Positions 16,216 through 20,509 of a DNA stretch of 64,000 nucleotides are shown here, piece after piece. Under the pieces are notes generated by a model. The model did not search any database. It worked only from the letters and a program-made list of their open reading frames with translations, and was not told the origin of the DNA. Numbering within the stretch: position 1 is the first letter of the stretch; every line of letters starts with the position of its first letter. The stretch is from Sulfuricurvum sp. 17-40-25. Lineage in GTDB: Bacteria > Campylobacterota > Campylobacteria > Campylobacterales > Sulfurimonadaceae. The stretch lies in the NCBI GenBank assembly GCA_002282015.1, contig NCIJ01000002.1, positions 248,001-312,000 on the forward strand, read 5' to 3'. Made by a program: the position numbers and the translations under genes.

Positions 16216-16644
16216 TTATTTTTTGAAAAAATAATCCACACCAAATTTTCCTCCACCATGCGTGGCAAGTATGAAGAGCATTAGCATGTAGTACAAAGGA
16301 ATTTCAAATCCATTATCTCCTGATGAAAACCCATTTGACAAATGAACGGTTGTAATCGCAACTACCATGACTACCATCAATGGCAAAGCAATAACCCGAA
16401 CACAAAGACCTAATACCAACAAGACTACGCCTGCCATCTCTGTAGATGCAGCCATATAAGCATTGATAAGAGGAAAAGGGATTCCTAAACTTTCACCAAA
16501 CCATGTTGCCACCGCACCAATATCTGACCATTTATTCATTGCAGGCTCATAAAAACCATACGCCAAAATAAGACGTAACAATAATAGCGATAGGTCTTGT
16601 CCCCCGTTTAGTAGCTTTTCCATCTTTTCTCTTAACGTGTACAT
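16216..16644 (-). CDS. DoxX family membrane protein of the bufferin-like operon
   Basis: A 142-residue protein with four hydrophobic segments, beginning LNGGQDLSLLLLRLILAYGF and containing ESLGIPFPLINAYMAASTEM, typical of DoxX. Members are found in oxidative-stress complexes and in bufferin operons (called BufD). It starts 1 bp after the DUF2063 gene stop, so it is surely cotranscribed. The role in the pathway is not known; quinone-linked redox or export are possibilities. No histidine-rich copper site is obvious. Confidence 0.85.
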   Translation of the reverse strand: MYTLREKMEKLLNGGQDLSLLLLRLILAYGFYEPAMNKWSDIGAVATWFGESLGIPFPLINAYMAASTEMAGVVLLVLGLCVRVIALPLMVVMVVAITTVHLSNGFSSGDNGFEIPLYYMLMLFILATHGGGKFGVDYFFKK

Positions 16645-16645
16645 T

Positions 16646-17344
16646 TTATACCTCCGTAATTTTAGTTAACACTCTTTGATTACACCATTTTTCCACTAAT
16701 TGTTCAACATTTTCACGTAATATCTCAACATCAAGTTCATACATCTCAGCCAAAACCATTACCGATTGTTCAAGCGTCATCTTCTCTAACAGTTCAATGA
16801 GTTGCTTGGCAAAAGGGGTTATCTCTTCAAAATAGACACATTTTTCATCAAAATGATAATAGAGTAGAAGGGAAGAAACACTAGGTGATTCAAGCTCACC
16901 GCTATGCACTCTATAGCTAAGATTCCGTACCAATGATGAGGATGAGAGTTCATACTTATTATTCCACTCTAATGCTACTTTTGTATCGTTGAAATCTCTG
17001 CTCAACAAATCTAACTCACCGTATTCAAACCATAATAAGTCTTCTAAAAAAGGGTACTTTATAGTCTTAGGATGATGGCGTAAAAAATCTGCAAACTCTT
17101 GGGATATTTTCACGATATATGGGCTCTTTGCTCCTGTAGCCATAAACTCACGAATCAATTCATGCATCAGGACTGTTCCCAATTTGGCAGTGAGGATGGG
17201 ATAAATATTTTCAAGTGTCTCAACAAATCGAAAATGCACCATATCACGGTATACCTGTAATCGATTATGCAAAGGGTCTGAGAGTTCTTCGTTGTTTTGG
17301 ATAATCTCTACAAAGCGCTCCATTACCGCTATCTCTGTTTTCAT
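16646..17344 (-). CDS. bufC: DUF2063 protein, BufC-like RiPP partner
   Basis: A 232-residue protein of the DUF2063 group: helical N-domain (LQVYRDMVHFRFVETLENIYPIL, FMATGAKSPY, FADFLRHHP) and a C-terminal winged-helix-like part (LEKMTLEQSVMVLAEMYELD). Related proteins (MbnC, BufC, HvfC) bind the DUF692 iron enzyme and present the precursor peptide's leader. It overlaps bufB by 4 bp. Together with the neighbouring cysteine-rich precursor this supports a bufferin-like pathway. Gene symbol given by role and order; direct evidence is lacking. Confidence 0.85.
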   Translation of the reverse strand: MKTEIAVMERFVEIIQNNEELSDPLHNRLQVYRDMVHFRFVETLENIYPILTAKLGTVLMHELIREFMATGAKSPYIVKISQEFADFLRHHPKTIKYPFLEDLLWFEYGELDLLSRDFNDTKVALEWNNKYELSSSSLVRNLSYRVHSGELESPSVSSLLLYYHFDEKCVYFEEITPFAKQLIELLEKMTLEQSVMVLAEMYELDVEILRENVEQLVEKWCNQRVLTKITEV

Positions 17345-18162
17345 TTTTGACTTCTTTTTGAAACTATTTTGGAAAGTTTTTTATACTCGTTCATCAGCTC
17401 TTTGATAGGAGGAATATTATTGTCACGCTCTAGCATTACAGGTGCTTTTATTTTTTTAAGCGTTCGTTCTAATAGTTTCCACACTTTTTTATCTACAGCT
17501 TCACCATGAGTGTCCAACAGCAATACTTCATCAGGATATTCCAAATGTCCGGCAATATGCATGTAAGCAACACGAGAAGGAGGTATGTGTGCGATATAGT
17601 CATCAGGGTCAAAGCCGTGATTGGTTGCATTGACATAGACATTATTAACATCTAATAACAGTGTCGTATCCGCATATTCAACGATTTCATTAATAAAATC
17701 TATTTCGGCCATCTCACTGTAGGGCTCCAGATAATAACTCGCGTTTTCCAATATCAAAGGTCGTTGTAAAACATCCTGTACCTGCTTGATCTTATCCCCG
17801 ATATGTCTCACCATAGATCGTGTCATAGGTAATGGAAGCAATTCATACGTCTGCATGCCGGCCAGCGTGGAAAAGCTCAGATGCTCCGAATAGTGCTCAA
17901 TTTTGTAGCGATCCAAAAAACTTTTTATATCATTCAAAAAACTTTTGTCGACCGCTTCTGGAGAGCCAATAGAAAGTGAGACACCATGAGCAACTACGGG
18001 TAGCAAACCCATAATCTGCTCAAAGTTTTCACGGTAACGATGTGGGGTGAACATCCAATTTTCAGGTGTGATTTCAATCCAGTCAGGCTTTTTTTTCAAA
18101 GCAATAAAGTCTTCTAAAAATTCCCGACGTAAACCTAAACCACAGCCAGTGATGTTATTCAT
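17341..18162 (-). CDS. bufB: DUF692 multinuclear iron enzyme, BufB-like
   Basis: A 273-residue TIM-barrel protein of the DUF692/MbnB family. Iron-site residues appear as HGVSLSIGSPE, SEHLSFS, LENASYYL, LLDVNNVYVN, AYMHIAGH, LDTHGEAV and LERDNNIP, all present and in the right order. Family members use a di- or tri-iron centre to oxidise cysteine residues of a precursor: oxazolone/thioamide in methanobactin, thiooxazole in bufferins and the Haemophilus HvfA peptide. It starts 12 bp after the precursor gene and overlaps bufC, so the substrate is very probably the KCG-repeat peptide just upstream. Confidence 0.92.
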   Translation of the reverse strand: MNNITGCGLGLRREFLEDFIALKKKPDWIEITPENWMFTPHRYRENFEQIMGLLPVVAHGVSLSIGSPEAVDKSFLNDIKSFLDRYKIEHYSEHLSFSTLAGMQTYELLPLPMTRSMVRHIGDKIKQVQDVLQRPLILENASYYLEPYSEMAEIDFINEIVEYADTTLLLDVNNVYVNATNHGFDPDDYIAHIPPSRVAYMHIAGHLEYPDEVLLLDTHGEAVDKKVWKLLERTLKKIKAPVMLERDNNIPPIKELMNEYKKLSKIVSKRSQK

Positions 18163-18174
18163 CCCTAAACGCCT

Positions 18175-18453
18175 TTACTTTTTTGCACCGCATTTTGCCT
18201 CAGCTGCTTTTTCTTTTTTAGCACCGCACTTTGCATCCGCCGCTTTTTCTTTATTTGCACCACATTTTGCATCGGCAGTTTTTTCTTTGTTAGCCCCACA
18301 TTTTGCTTCCGCAGTTTTTGCTTTGTTCGCACCACATTTACCCGCACCGCATTTACCCGCACCGCATTTTGCACCTGCTTCATTAGCCATTGCCATTGGA
18401 GCACTCATTAATGATGCACCTAATACGATTGCTGCTACTTCTTTTTTTGTCAT
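18175..18453 (-). CDS. bufA: Bufferin-like RiPP precursor with seven KCG motifs
   Basis: A 92-residue protein from the ATG at 18453 (AAGGAT 6 bases upstream). Residues 1-23 are a signal peptide (VAAIVLGASLMSAPMAMA). The mature part has seven K-C-G motifs with cysteines at 30, 35, 40, 52, 64, 76 and 88. Spacing is 5 residues for the first three, then exactly 12 for the rest, built on units such as ADAKCGANKEKA. In the Haemophilus HvfA family the modified motif is EGKCG, so these look like modification sites for the DUF692 enzyme downstream. The product is probably a periplasmic copper-buffering peptide (inference). Rich in Lys and Ala, with no other cysteine. Confidence 0.85.
   Translation of the reverse strand: MTKKEVAAIVLGASLMSAPMAMANEAGAKCGAGKCGAGKCGANKAKTAEAKCGANKEKTADAKCGANKEKAADAKCGAKKEKAAEAKCGAKK
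18178..18365. repeat. Tandem coding repeats in the precursor gene
   Basis: Four 36-bp units encode the 12-residue K-C-G repeats, followed on the plus-strand map by three 15-bp units encoding A-G-K-C-G. The units differ mainly at third positions, so the repeat number has been kept for some time but could change by slippage. Confidence 0.75.
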
Positions 18454-18484
18454 TTTAAATCCTTTTTTTTTGTTATTCACCGTG

Positions 18485-18515
18485 TAGTATATATCAATAT
18501 TATTAATATATACTA
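18485..18515. promoter_or_regulatory. Palindrome over the probable promoter of the bufferin-like operon
   Basis: A perfect 10-base inverted repeat, TAGTATATAT and ATATATACTA, separated by 11 bases. A minus-strand -10-like TATACT falls within one arm (18486-18491), placing a start near 18479, about 26 bases before the precursor ATG. A dimeric regulator bound here would block or remodel the promoter. AT-rich palindromes can arise by chance, so the regulator is hypothetical. Confidence 0.45.
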
Positions 18516-18559
18516 AAAAATTGTAACCATTTATAGTGTGTTAACATTATCGAAATTAA

Positions 18560-20509
18560 CTATGGTTTTACTATCAGTGACTCTATCTCTTTTGCTATCT
18601 TATCAATATCTTTATCATTTGCAAAACATGCTCCTGTGACACATGCCGAAAAGTCATCTCTTTGCTGCGGATGAATGACTATATAAGGATACGCTATGTT
18701 TTCAATGACTTTTTGATTATTTTTTAATACCTGCGCCTGATGGGATAGATGTACTACTTTGTAGTGTCCCATAAGCCATGCTATCATACTTGAAGGAGCG
18801 TTCATGGATGAGTCAAGGATTCTGTCTCCTTGGATTTCAAGTGATTTTTGTGCTAATCGCCCGTAACGCGGTTCTTCTACCAATGCGGCTAAGTTGTAAA
18901 GGTTTTGCATCATCCTCCCATAGCCTGAAGTGGTGTATTTATCCAACAAGTCCACTTCGACCTTCAGCCCTTGTGAGTTTTGTACCCAACCCTCTTTTGT
19001 ATGAAACTTTACGATAGCTTCCTCGGTTAGTTTTTGAGCTAGATGGAGTTTCTCTTCATCAAAAGCTACTTCATACGCGGTTATCAATGCTGAAATCACA
19101 AATGCATAATCTTCCAGTAACCCTTTTTTACTCATCGGGTATCCGCTCAGGGTTTGATGATAAAGCTCACCGTTTAAATAAAGAGTTTTAAGCAGTGTGT
19201 TCAAAGAATCATCTGCCTTGTTAATCATAGATGGATCTATACTGCCTGATTTATACAGTGCCTCAATCATCATCGCGTTCCAGGATGTGATCATCTTCTC
19301 ATCAATAAAAGGATAATTACGTGTGAATCTTATTTTTTTTAACTCAGTTCTAAATGCTTCAAACCCAGCGGGTCGTTTATCGAGTACAAGACGAAGATGA
19401 TATTTTTCCTCAAAATTTGCCCCTTCATCAAATCCAAAAGACTCTTGGAGAACATCAGTCGGTTTTAGCGACTCTATTTCATCGGTAGAATAGGTAAAAT
19501 ATCCCCCCTCATGGTGATCACTATCCGCGTCACTGGCGCTGTAAAATAGATCATCATGTCCAAATCGGTGGTAGGTCATCGCAATCGTTTCTTTCACAAT
19601 ATTTGCATATAATGGATCATTGGTCAGTTGATAGGCTCTTACATATAGAGGTATTAATTCTGCTTGATTGTATAGCATCTTCTCAAAATGGGGGATTTCC
19701 CATCCTGCATCGGTGCTGTAGCGAAAAAAGCCCCCCTCTACTTGATCGTACAATCCGCTTAGGGCCATCGAGCGTAATACTTCCAGTGCCATAGTTTGCG
19801 CGTGAGTATTGCCGGATTTTCCAAGATCGAGTAAAAGTGCTATCTTCGATGCTTCAGGAAATTTAGGGGCTATCGTAAATCCGTGATAGATCGAATCGTA
19901 GTTTTCTTGAAGTGATTTGAAAATAGTCTCAGGGGATATGCTGACCGATGGGAGATTATTTTTAAGATATTGCTCTTCTTTGAGTTCTTTTGCCTGCTTG
20001 ATATAAAGTGCAGGATTGGCTTGATATCCCTTGCCTATTTGACCCATTAACGATTCCATACCTGCAATATCTTCTACATCCTTGGGCGGTATATACGTCC
20101 CGATCCAAAACAAGTCTCCATTTTCACTTAACAGCGCATGCAGTGGCCAACCGCCAGAACGTCCTTTTATTCTACGATGCTGTTGCTGATAATAGCTGTC
20201 GATATGGCTCATCTCTTCACGATCGATTTTAACAGGAATAAAATAGGTGTTGATCAATCTCGCTATGGATTCATTCTCAAACGATTCATGGGCCATAACG
20301 TGACACCAATGGCAGGTACTGTATCCGATTGATAAAAATATCGGCTTATGTTCTGCCTTTGATCGTCGCAATACATCATCACTGTATGCAATCCAGTTCA
20401 CGGGATTTTGCGCATGTTGACGTAAGTATGGTGATGCCTCGTTGATGAGTGCATTAGCTGCAAACAATGATAAGGATAAACTGCATATAAAGATTAGTTT
20501 TTTAATCAT
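18560..20509 (-). CDS. DUF255 thioredoxin-domain protein (YyaL/SSP411 type)
   Basis: A 649-residue protein. After a signal-like N-terminus (FICSLSLSLFAANA) comes NEASPYLRQHAQNPVNW and a thioredoxin-like domain with C-H-W-C-H in STCHWCHVMAHESF. The rest is an (alpha/alpha)6 barrel like N-acylglucosamine epimerases, with GGFFRYSTDAGWEIPHFEKM and WNAMMIEAL. Family function is unknown. Most members are cytoplasmic; the leading hydrophobic segment suggests export here. It lies upstream of the bufferin-like operon on the same strand, about 105 bp away, so it may be functionally linked through thiol chemistry, though this is only proximity. Confidence 0.9.
   Translation of the reverse strand: MIKKLIFICSLSLSLFAANALINEASPYLRQHAQNPVNWIAYSDDVLRRSKAEHKPIFLSIGYSTCHWCHVMAHESFENESIARLINTYFIPVKIDREEMSHIDSYYQQQHRRIKGRSGGWPLHALLSENGDLFWIGTYIPPKDVEDIAGMESLMGQIGKGYQANPALYIKQAKELKEEQYLKNNLPSVSISPETIFKSLQENYDSIYHGFTIAPKFPEASKIALLLDLGKSGNTHAQTMALEVLRSMALSGLYDQVEGGFFRYSTDAGWEIPHFEKMLYNQAELIPLYVRAYQLTNDPLYANIVKETIAMTYHRFGHDDLFYSASDADSDHHEGGYFTYSTDEIESLKPTDVLQESFGFDEGANFEEKYHLRLVLDKRPAGFEAFRTELKKIRFTRNYPFIDEKMITSWNAMMIEALYKSGSIDPSMINKADDSLNTLLKTLYLNGELYHQTLSGYPMSKKGLLEDYAFVISALITAYEVAFDEEKLHLAQKLTEEAIVKFHTKEGWVQNSQGLKVEVDLLDKYTTSGYGRMMQNLYNLAALVEEPRYGRLAQKSLEIQGDRILDSSMNAPSSMIAWLMGHYKVVHLSHQAQVLKNNQKVIENIAYPYIVIHPQQRDDFSACVTGACFANDKDIDKIAKEIESLIVKP

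Follow-up and report, generated by a model that had tools for sequence, protein, structure and literature searches.

The window examined here, a stretch of 64,000 nucleotides from Sulfuricurvum sp. 17-40-25 (contig NCIJ01000002.1, positions 248,001 to 312,000), carries on its minus strand a four-gene operon which very probably makes a ribosomal copper-binding peptide of the KCG type, the type of HvfA/oxazolin and fontiphorin, also designated captophorins. The operon is real and of an already described kind, and it represents no new kind of system. It is transcribed in the order precursor, MNIO (DUF692) enzyme, DUF2063 partner and DoxX protein, with a 12-bp gap between the precursor and MNIO genes, a 4-bp overlap between the MNIO and DUF2063 genes and a 1-bp gap between the DUF2063 and DoxX genes, which agrees with the close succession described in an earlier note on this DNA. 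The family assignment is well supported by the gene content and order, the signal-peptide-like N-terminus, the KCG conservation, the invariant enzyme residues, the predicted partner fold and the profile matches; the modification chemistry, leader role, export and copper function would follow those of characterised relatives, and the operon may be induced by copper. The features of the locus are as follows.

18175..18453, minus strand: precursor gene of the HvfA/KCG type, 92 amino acids, start ATG at 18453 (NCBIfam NF050137).
17341..18162, minus strand: MNIO (DUF692, PF05114) enzyme, HvfB/BufB-like, 273 amino acids (PF05114, NF003818, 3BWW homologue, invariant residues).
16646..17344, minus strand: DUF2063 and NGO1945_C partner protein (PME type 1, HvfC-like) with an RRE-type C-terminal domain (PF09836, PF22106, fold).
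16216..16644, minus strand: DoxX membrane protein of the HvfX family (NF050144, PF07681).
18174..18339, minus strand: 36-bp tandem repeat coding the 12-residue array (Tandem Repeats Finder, unit comparison).
18454..18559, minus strand: intergenic promoter region of the operon, containing a perfect 10-bp inverted repeat at 18485-18515.

The precursor contains cysteines at residues 30, 35, 40, 52, 64, 76 and 88, all seven of them within KCG and separated by 5, 5, 12, 12, 12 and 12 residues, so that the earlier description of a 92-residue precursor with seven K-C-G cysteines, the last five exactly 12 apart, was recovered when coordinates and spacings were recomputed. When the mature sequence was shuffled 100,000 times, no shuffle reached seven KCG motifs, the maximum being 4. 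The N-terminus, MTKKEVAAIVLGASLMSAPMAMA, has a charged start, a hydrophobic stretch and an AxA site and, read by eye without a signal-peptide predictor, resembles a Sec signal peptide, which probably spans residues 1-23 with cleavage after AMA-23; it is conserved in 25 precursors, in line with the secretion proposed earlier. The NCBIfam profile NF050137 (HvfA-family KCG domain) is matched with 37.5 bits against a cut-off of 19.5, and likewise by 25/25 Campylobacterota precursors tested (E <= 0.001), while the HvfA equivalog (oxazolin) profile NF050188 gives 18.9 bits, below its cut-off of 95, and a Pfam search of the precursor returned no match, DUF2282 of bufferin 1 included. By its sequence the precursor is a member of the KCG/HvfA group (HvfA, Buf_EGKCG, captophorin) and belongs neither to the DUF2282 (Buf1) nor to the 6/12-Cys Buf2 group. 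The label "bufferin-like" for this operon of ribosomally synthesised, post-translationally modified peptide type consequently holds as a family call, given the profile matches, the order of the genes, the invariant residues and the fold of the partner, and is imprecise for the precursor.

The MNIO enzyme matches PF05114 with 318.8 bits, and its two nearest named relatives, from Sulfuricurvum metagenome-assembled genomes, are 86% identical. Eleven residues (E30, H59, H94, E139, D171, N173, N174, H182, H202, D217 and H219) are invariant across 52/52 aligned MNIOs and common to 3BWW; together with the PF05114 match these His, Asp, Glu and Asn residues place the protein in the MNIO superfamily, and they are probable metal-site residues. 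Loss of N175, D242 or H244 abolishes the activity of HvfB (PMC13419390), and by the 3BWW alignment these map to N174, D217 and H219, where HvfB numbering was matched to 3BWW by counting and a one-residue shift was allowed at the last two positions. Within the genus the non-synonymous divergence (dN) of MNIO is 0.07-0.11 versus a synonymous divergence (dS) of 0.7-1.7. Among plasmids, 354 records of a collection encode an MNIO relative, all of them below 60% identity, many from Escherichia/Klebsiella and 129 predicted to be conjugative.

The partner protein exceeds the cut-offs of PF09836 and PF22106, and its AlphaFold model (mean predicted local distance difference test, pLDDT, 88.7) is predicted to fold like NGO1945 of Neisseria gonorrhoeae (3DEE), which is the partner protein NgoC (PMC13097082): the fold search gave Z 17.1 over 196 residues with a root-mean-square deviation of 3.1, and TglI was also matched. 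The C-terminal half of the model matches the leader-bound RREs 5V1U/6JX3. Searching solved structures with the partner by sequence alone gave no match, in contrast to the fold search. DoxX scores 129 bits against the HvfX profile NF050144 (cut-off 80) and also matches PF07681; the adjacent MNIO and PME-type-1 (DUF2063) partner genes, commonly with DoxX, are the gene context of captophorin/HvfA systems. In genome G406 (L056, L077), another Sulfuricurvum carrier, no DoxX lies between the DUF2063 gene and the DsbD gene, which are ~100 bp apart, so that DoxX is not always part of the operon.

In the proposed mechanism the precursor would be made in the cytoplasm, and the DUF2063/RRE partner would bind its signal peptide, holding it on the MNIO, which with a mixed-valent diiron centre and O2 would oxidise the KCG cysteines to 5-thiooxazoles (-4 Da each), the groups carried by FonA, HvfA and NgoA (PMC13097082). 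Sec would then export the modified peptide, the signal peptide would be removed, and in the periplasm the product may buffer copper by binding it, while the DoxX protein would act in the membrane. The 12-residue array would be a local tandem expansion that provides a flexible chain, rich in lysine, with further binding sites.

Several observations weigh against this reading. The MNIO scores 327.4 bits against HvfB NF003818, below the equivalog cut-off of 360 (three other Campylobacterota MNIOs reach 310-332, gammaproteobacterial L053 452), and the partner scores 95.2 bits against HvfC NF050145, below 142, so that the chemistry need not be identical. No recognisably copper-specific transporter, regulator or operator was seen in the neighbouring genes examined; Cu-type P-ATPases are present in the genome, but these are common in general and give no evidence for the role of the operon. 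Finally, four of the seven sites are isolated, and FonBC modified a two-repeat peptide and left a one-repeat peptide unmodified (PMC13097082).

The near-complete 2.3 Mb assembly to which the window belongs has one MNIO gene and one KCG precursor. In Campylobacterota an MNIO over the Pfam cut-off is found in 26 of 397 genomes, from 17 genera, and a KCG-type precursor adjoins 25 of the 26 genes; in the MNIO and DUF2063 locus L023 (G348) none was recognisable in the flank fetched. Most of these loci yielded the partner and many yielded DoxX, where non-detections may stem from the 1.5-kb flanks or from divergence. The 274-aa frames of two further genomes (L027, L028) match PF05114 weakly and in part (18-19 bits, below the cut-off), which probably reflects a different protein. 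A tree of 50 MNIOs places the Campylobacterota sequences in one clade (support 99/97) beside a gammaproteobacterial KCG group, the other rows having been chosen by pattern similarity to the query and not as a full census. No paper on these pathways in Campylobacterota was found by open-licence full-text searches with supplements unread.

Within Sulfuricurvum the MNIO occurs in 6/41 genomes, and in 6/6 carriers the operon stands directly upstream of the DsbD gene. Ten Sulfuricurvum genomes without the operon have a divergent DUF255 gene beside DsbD, apparently an empty site, and in L029 (identical in sequence to L003) the operon sits exactly between the DUF255 and DsbD genes; the comparison of carriers with the empty site indicates an accessory operon gained or lost at one place. 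Next to the operon in the window, the DUF255/thioredoxin-like gene (18560-20509) shows ~35-43% identity to the DUF255 gene located at that site in relatives (L083-L088) and differs from it in orientation, which suggests a replacement or paralogue.

This position bears on the first of the alternatives, by which the same peptide chemistry would yield a product that handles another metal (Hg, Au or Ag, for example), another stress or reactive sulfur species instead of copper. The constant DsbD neighbour and the sulfur-oxidising host genus speak for it, as do gold-induced bufferin operons, MerC fusions and a DoxX homologue tied to sulfur/oxidative stress (PMC12452194); however, relatives that lack the operon have DsbD too, so the association may be one of position alone, and those KCG and bufferin products which have been characterised bind copper. 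Altogether this alternative appears unlikely, though it is the one which survives best.

Somewhat less probable still is that modification is confined to the KCG pair or triple nearest the signal peptide, with the isolated distal KCG sites (4/7 in the window precursor) left as unmodified thiols in a metallothionein-like tail. The failure of FonBC with the one-repeat peptide fits this possibility, and so does the conservation pattern in the phylum, where the precursors conserve the proximal KCGxxKCG pair and vary in their distal sites. On the other hand, every repeat site is modified in HvfA and FonA (PMC13097082), arrays of isolated KCG/SCG sites are seen again in Gammaproteobacteria (L034, L053), and the distal units here retain KCG despite synonymous divergence. 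The array unit reads KCG followed by A-N/K-K-A/E-K-A/T-A-D/E-A, and Tandem Repeats Finder reports a 36-bp unit in 4.6 copies with 83% matches; only 4-7 of the 9-11 codons of shared residues are identical between units. Residues were thus kept while codons drifted, which points to a repeat maintained at the protein level and not to a fresh duplication.

The cysteine spacing was counted in 25 aligned precursors from 24 genomes, one genome having two, with L004, L005, L011, L021 and L025 left outside the count. Among 142 spacings 71 equal 5, one equals 3 and the rest are at least 12, with none from 6 to 11; a spacing of 12 is the commonest after 5 (15/142). L004 and L005, also from Campylobacterota, show spacings of 9 and 10 as well, and Gammaproteobacteria also use 10 and 11. 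Glycine follows 165 of the 167 cysteines, and 123 lie in KCG. Outside Sulfuricurvum most Campylobacterota precursors have KCG pairs five apart, and the six Sulfuricurvum carriers have six layouts: 5,5,12,12,12,12; 5,27,12,12; 5,23,19; 5,12,5,12,16; 5,19,12,17; and 5,5,19,17,12. Gammaproteobacterial L053 has a 12-residue run and L034 a ten-residue run. Variation of layout within one genus, together with 12-residue runs in Gammaproteobacteria, argues that the exact period is a species-level state of a fast-changing array. A second KCG precursor with spacings 5,13,13,13 was observed in L078 (G420:C4, 1228-1747), followed by an MNIO start at the contig end, in one of the six Sulfuricurvum carriers, which thus also has the main operon.

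The proposal of the earlier note that the regular layout marks a distinct Campylobacterota class, for example an ordered solenoid, was accordingly rejected and is now very improbable: it could draw on the frequency of the spacing 12 and on the single MNIO clade of the phylum, but the six layouts, the prevalence of pairs five apart and the L053 run contradict it, and the AlphaFold model of the precursor (mean pLDDT 46) contains no structure past the signal helix and is uninformative as to an ordered repeat fold.

In the promoter region the perfect inverted repeat has the form TAGTATATAT-N11-ATATATACTA; its last position, 18515, which is the end stated in the earlier note, lies outside the precursor gene. 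The repeat is absent upstream of the other Sulfuricurvum operons checked (L003, L029 and L030, the first two being the same sequence), and a conserved operator was rejected as the repeat is not common to related operons. Promoter-like matches upstream of the operon are near chance level, and a search for an RNA element gave no Rfam match.

The leader is one of the features in which the Campylobacterota precursors depart from others. A motif F-x4-L-x2-GY follows the signal peptide in 16/19 of the non-Campylobacterota KCG precursors examined (16/16 of the complete ones, the three without it being cut at the contig or locus start) and in 0/25 of the Campylobacterota precursors, where the first KCG begins within a few residues of the probable cleavage site. 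In the signal peptide, residues L11, G12 and A23 do not vary between the 25 aligned Campylobacterota sequences; its identity among five Sulfuricurvum carriers is 83-96%, compared with 47-87% for the signal peptide of DsbD, the one control protein used. In some species pairs 16 of 17-18 signal-peptide codons (18385-18453 and orthologues) are identical with MNIO near synonymous saturation; in other pairs they are not. Sec signal peptides have been reported as leaders in HvfA and bufferin, and HvfA without its signal sequence was poorly modified (PMC13419390); the conserved signal peptide fits these reports, and in Campylobacterota it probably doubles as leader. With these precursors a copper-peptide pathway that has been studied for the most part in Pseudomonadota is extended to a separate lineage. 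They are natural tests of two questions: whether a Sec signal peptide suffices as leader, and whether paired KCG repeats are required by an MNIO.

Among the characterised systems HvfABCX (oxazolin) of Haemophilus influenzae shares with the present operon the four-gene content, the signal peptide, the repeated KCG and the combination of MNIO, DUF2063/RRE partner and DoxX, but differs in its EGKCG context, AKCGA being present here, and in lacking isolated sites spaced by 12, besides the equivalog cut-offs which MNIO and partner do not reach. EGKCG is nearly absent from Campylobacterota precursors (2/167), in which AGKCG, DAKCG and DGKCG dominate. Fontiphorin (FonABC) and other captophorins have precursors of the same Lys-Cys group, with seven sites in FonA as here; AKCGA was among the commonly occurring 5-mers tested in the captophorin study, and FonBC modified a double AKCGA substrate once, whereas FonA bears EGKCG repeats and the present precursor has four isolated sites and no Glu in that context (PMC13097082). 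Buf_EGKCG precursors are likewise secreted and repeat-bearing, vary in site number and occur in MNIO/DUF2063/DoxX clusters (PMC12452194); the present precursor is distinguished from them by 12-residue single-site repeats and the absence of a confident predicted fold. Bulbicupramide (mmr, Microbulbifer) also combines a conserved leader and a variable number of KCG units with MNIO and DUF2063, but its cassettes are di-Cys EGKCG and its hosts Gammaproteobacteria (PMC12538549). Bufferins 1/2 of Caulobacter share MNIO, DUF2063 and DoxX and are Sec-exported copper buffers, their precursors having DUF2282 or 6/12-Cys domains, with no DUF2282 match here. It is tentatively proposed, at less than even probability, that Campylobacterota hold a separate KCG captophorin branch, in which F-x4-L-x2-GY is absent, the Sec signal peptide would be the sole leader and the Sulfuricurvum enzyme would be adapted to isolated KCG sites in fast-changing tandem arrays; the sequence differences from the characterised members are modest and worth a test.
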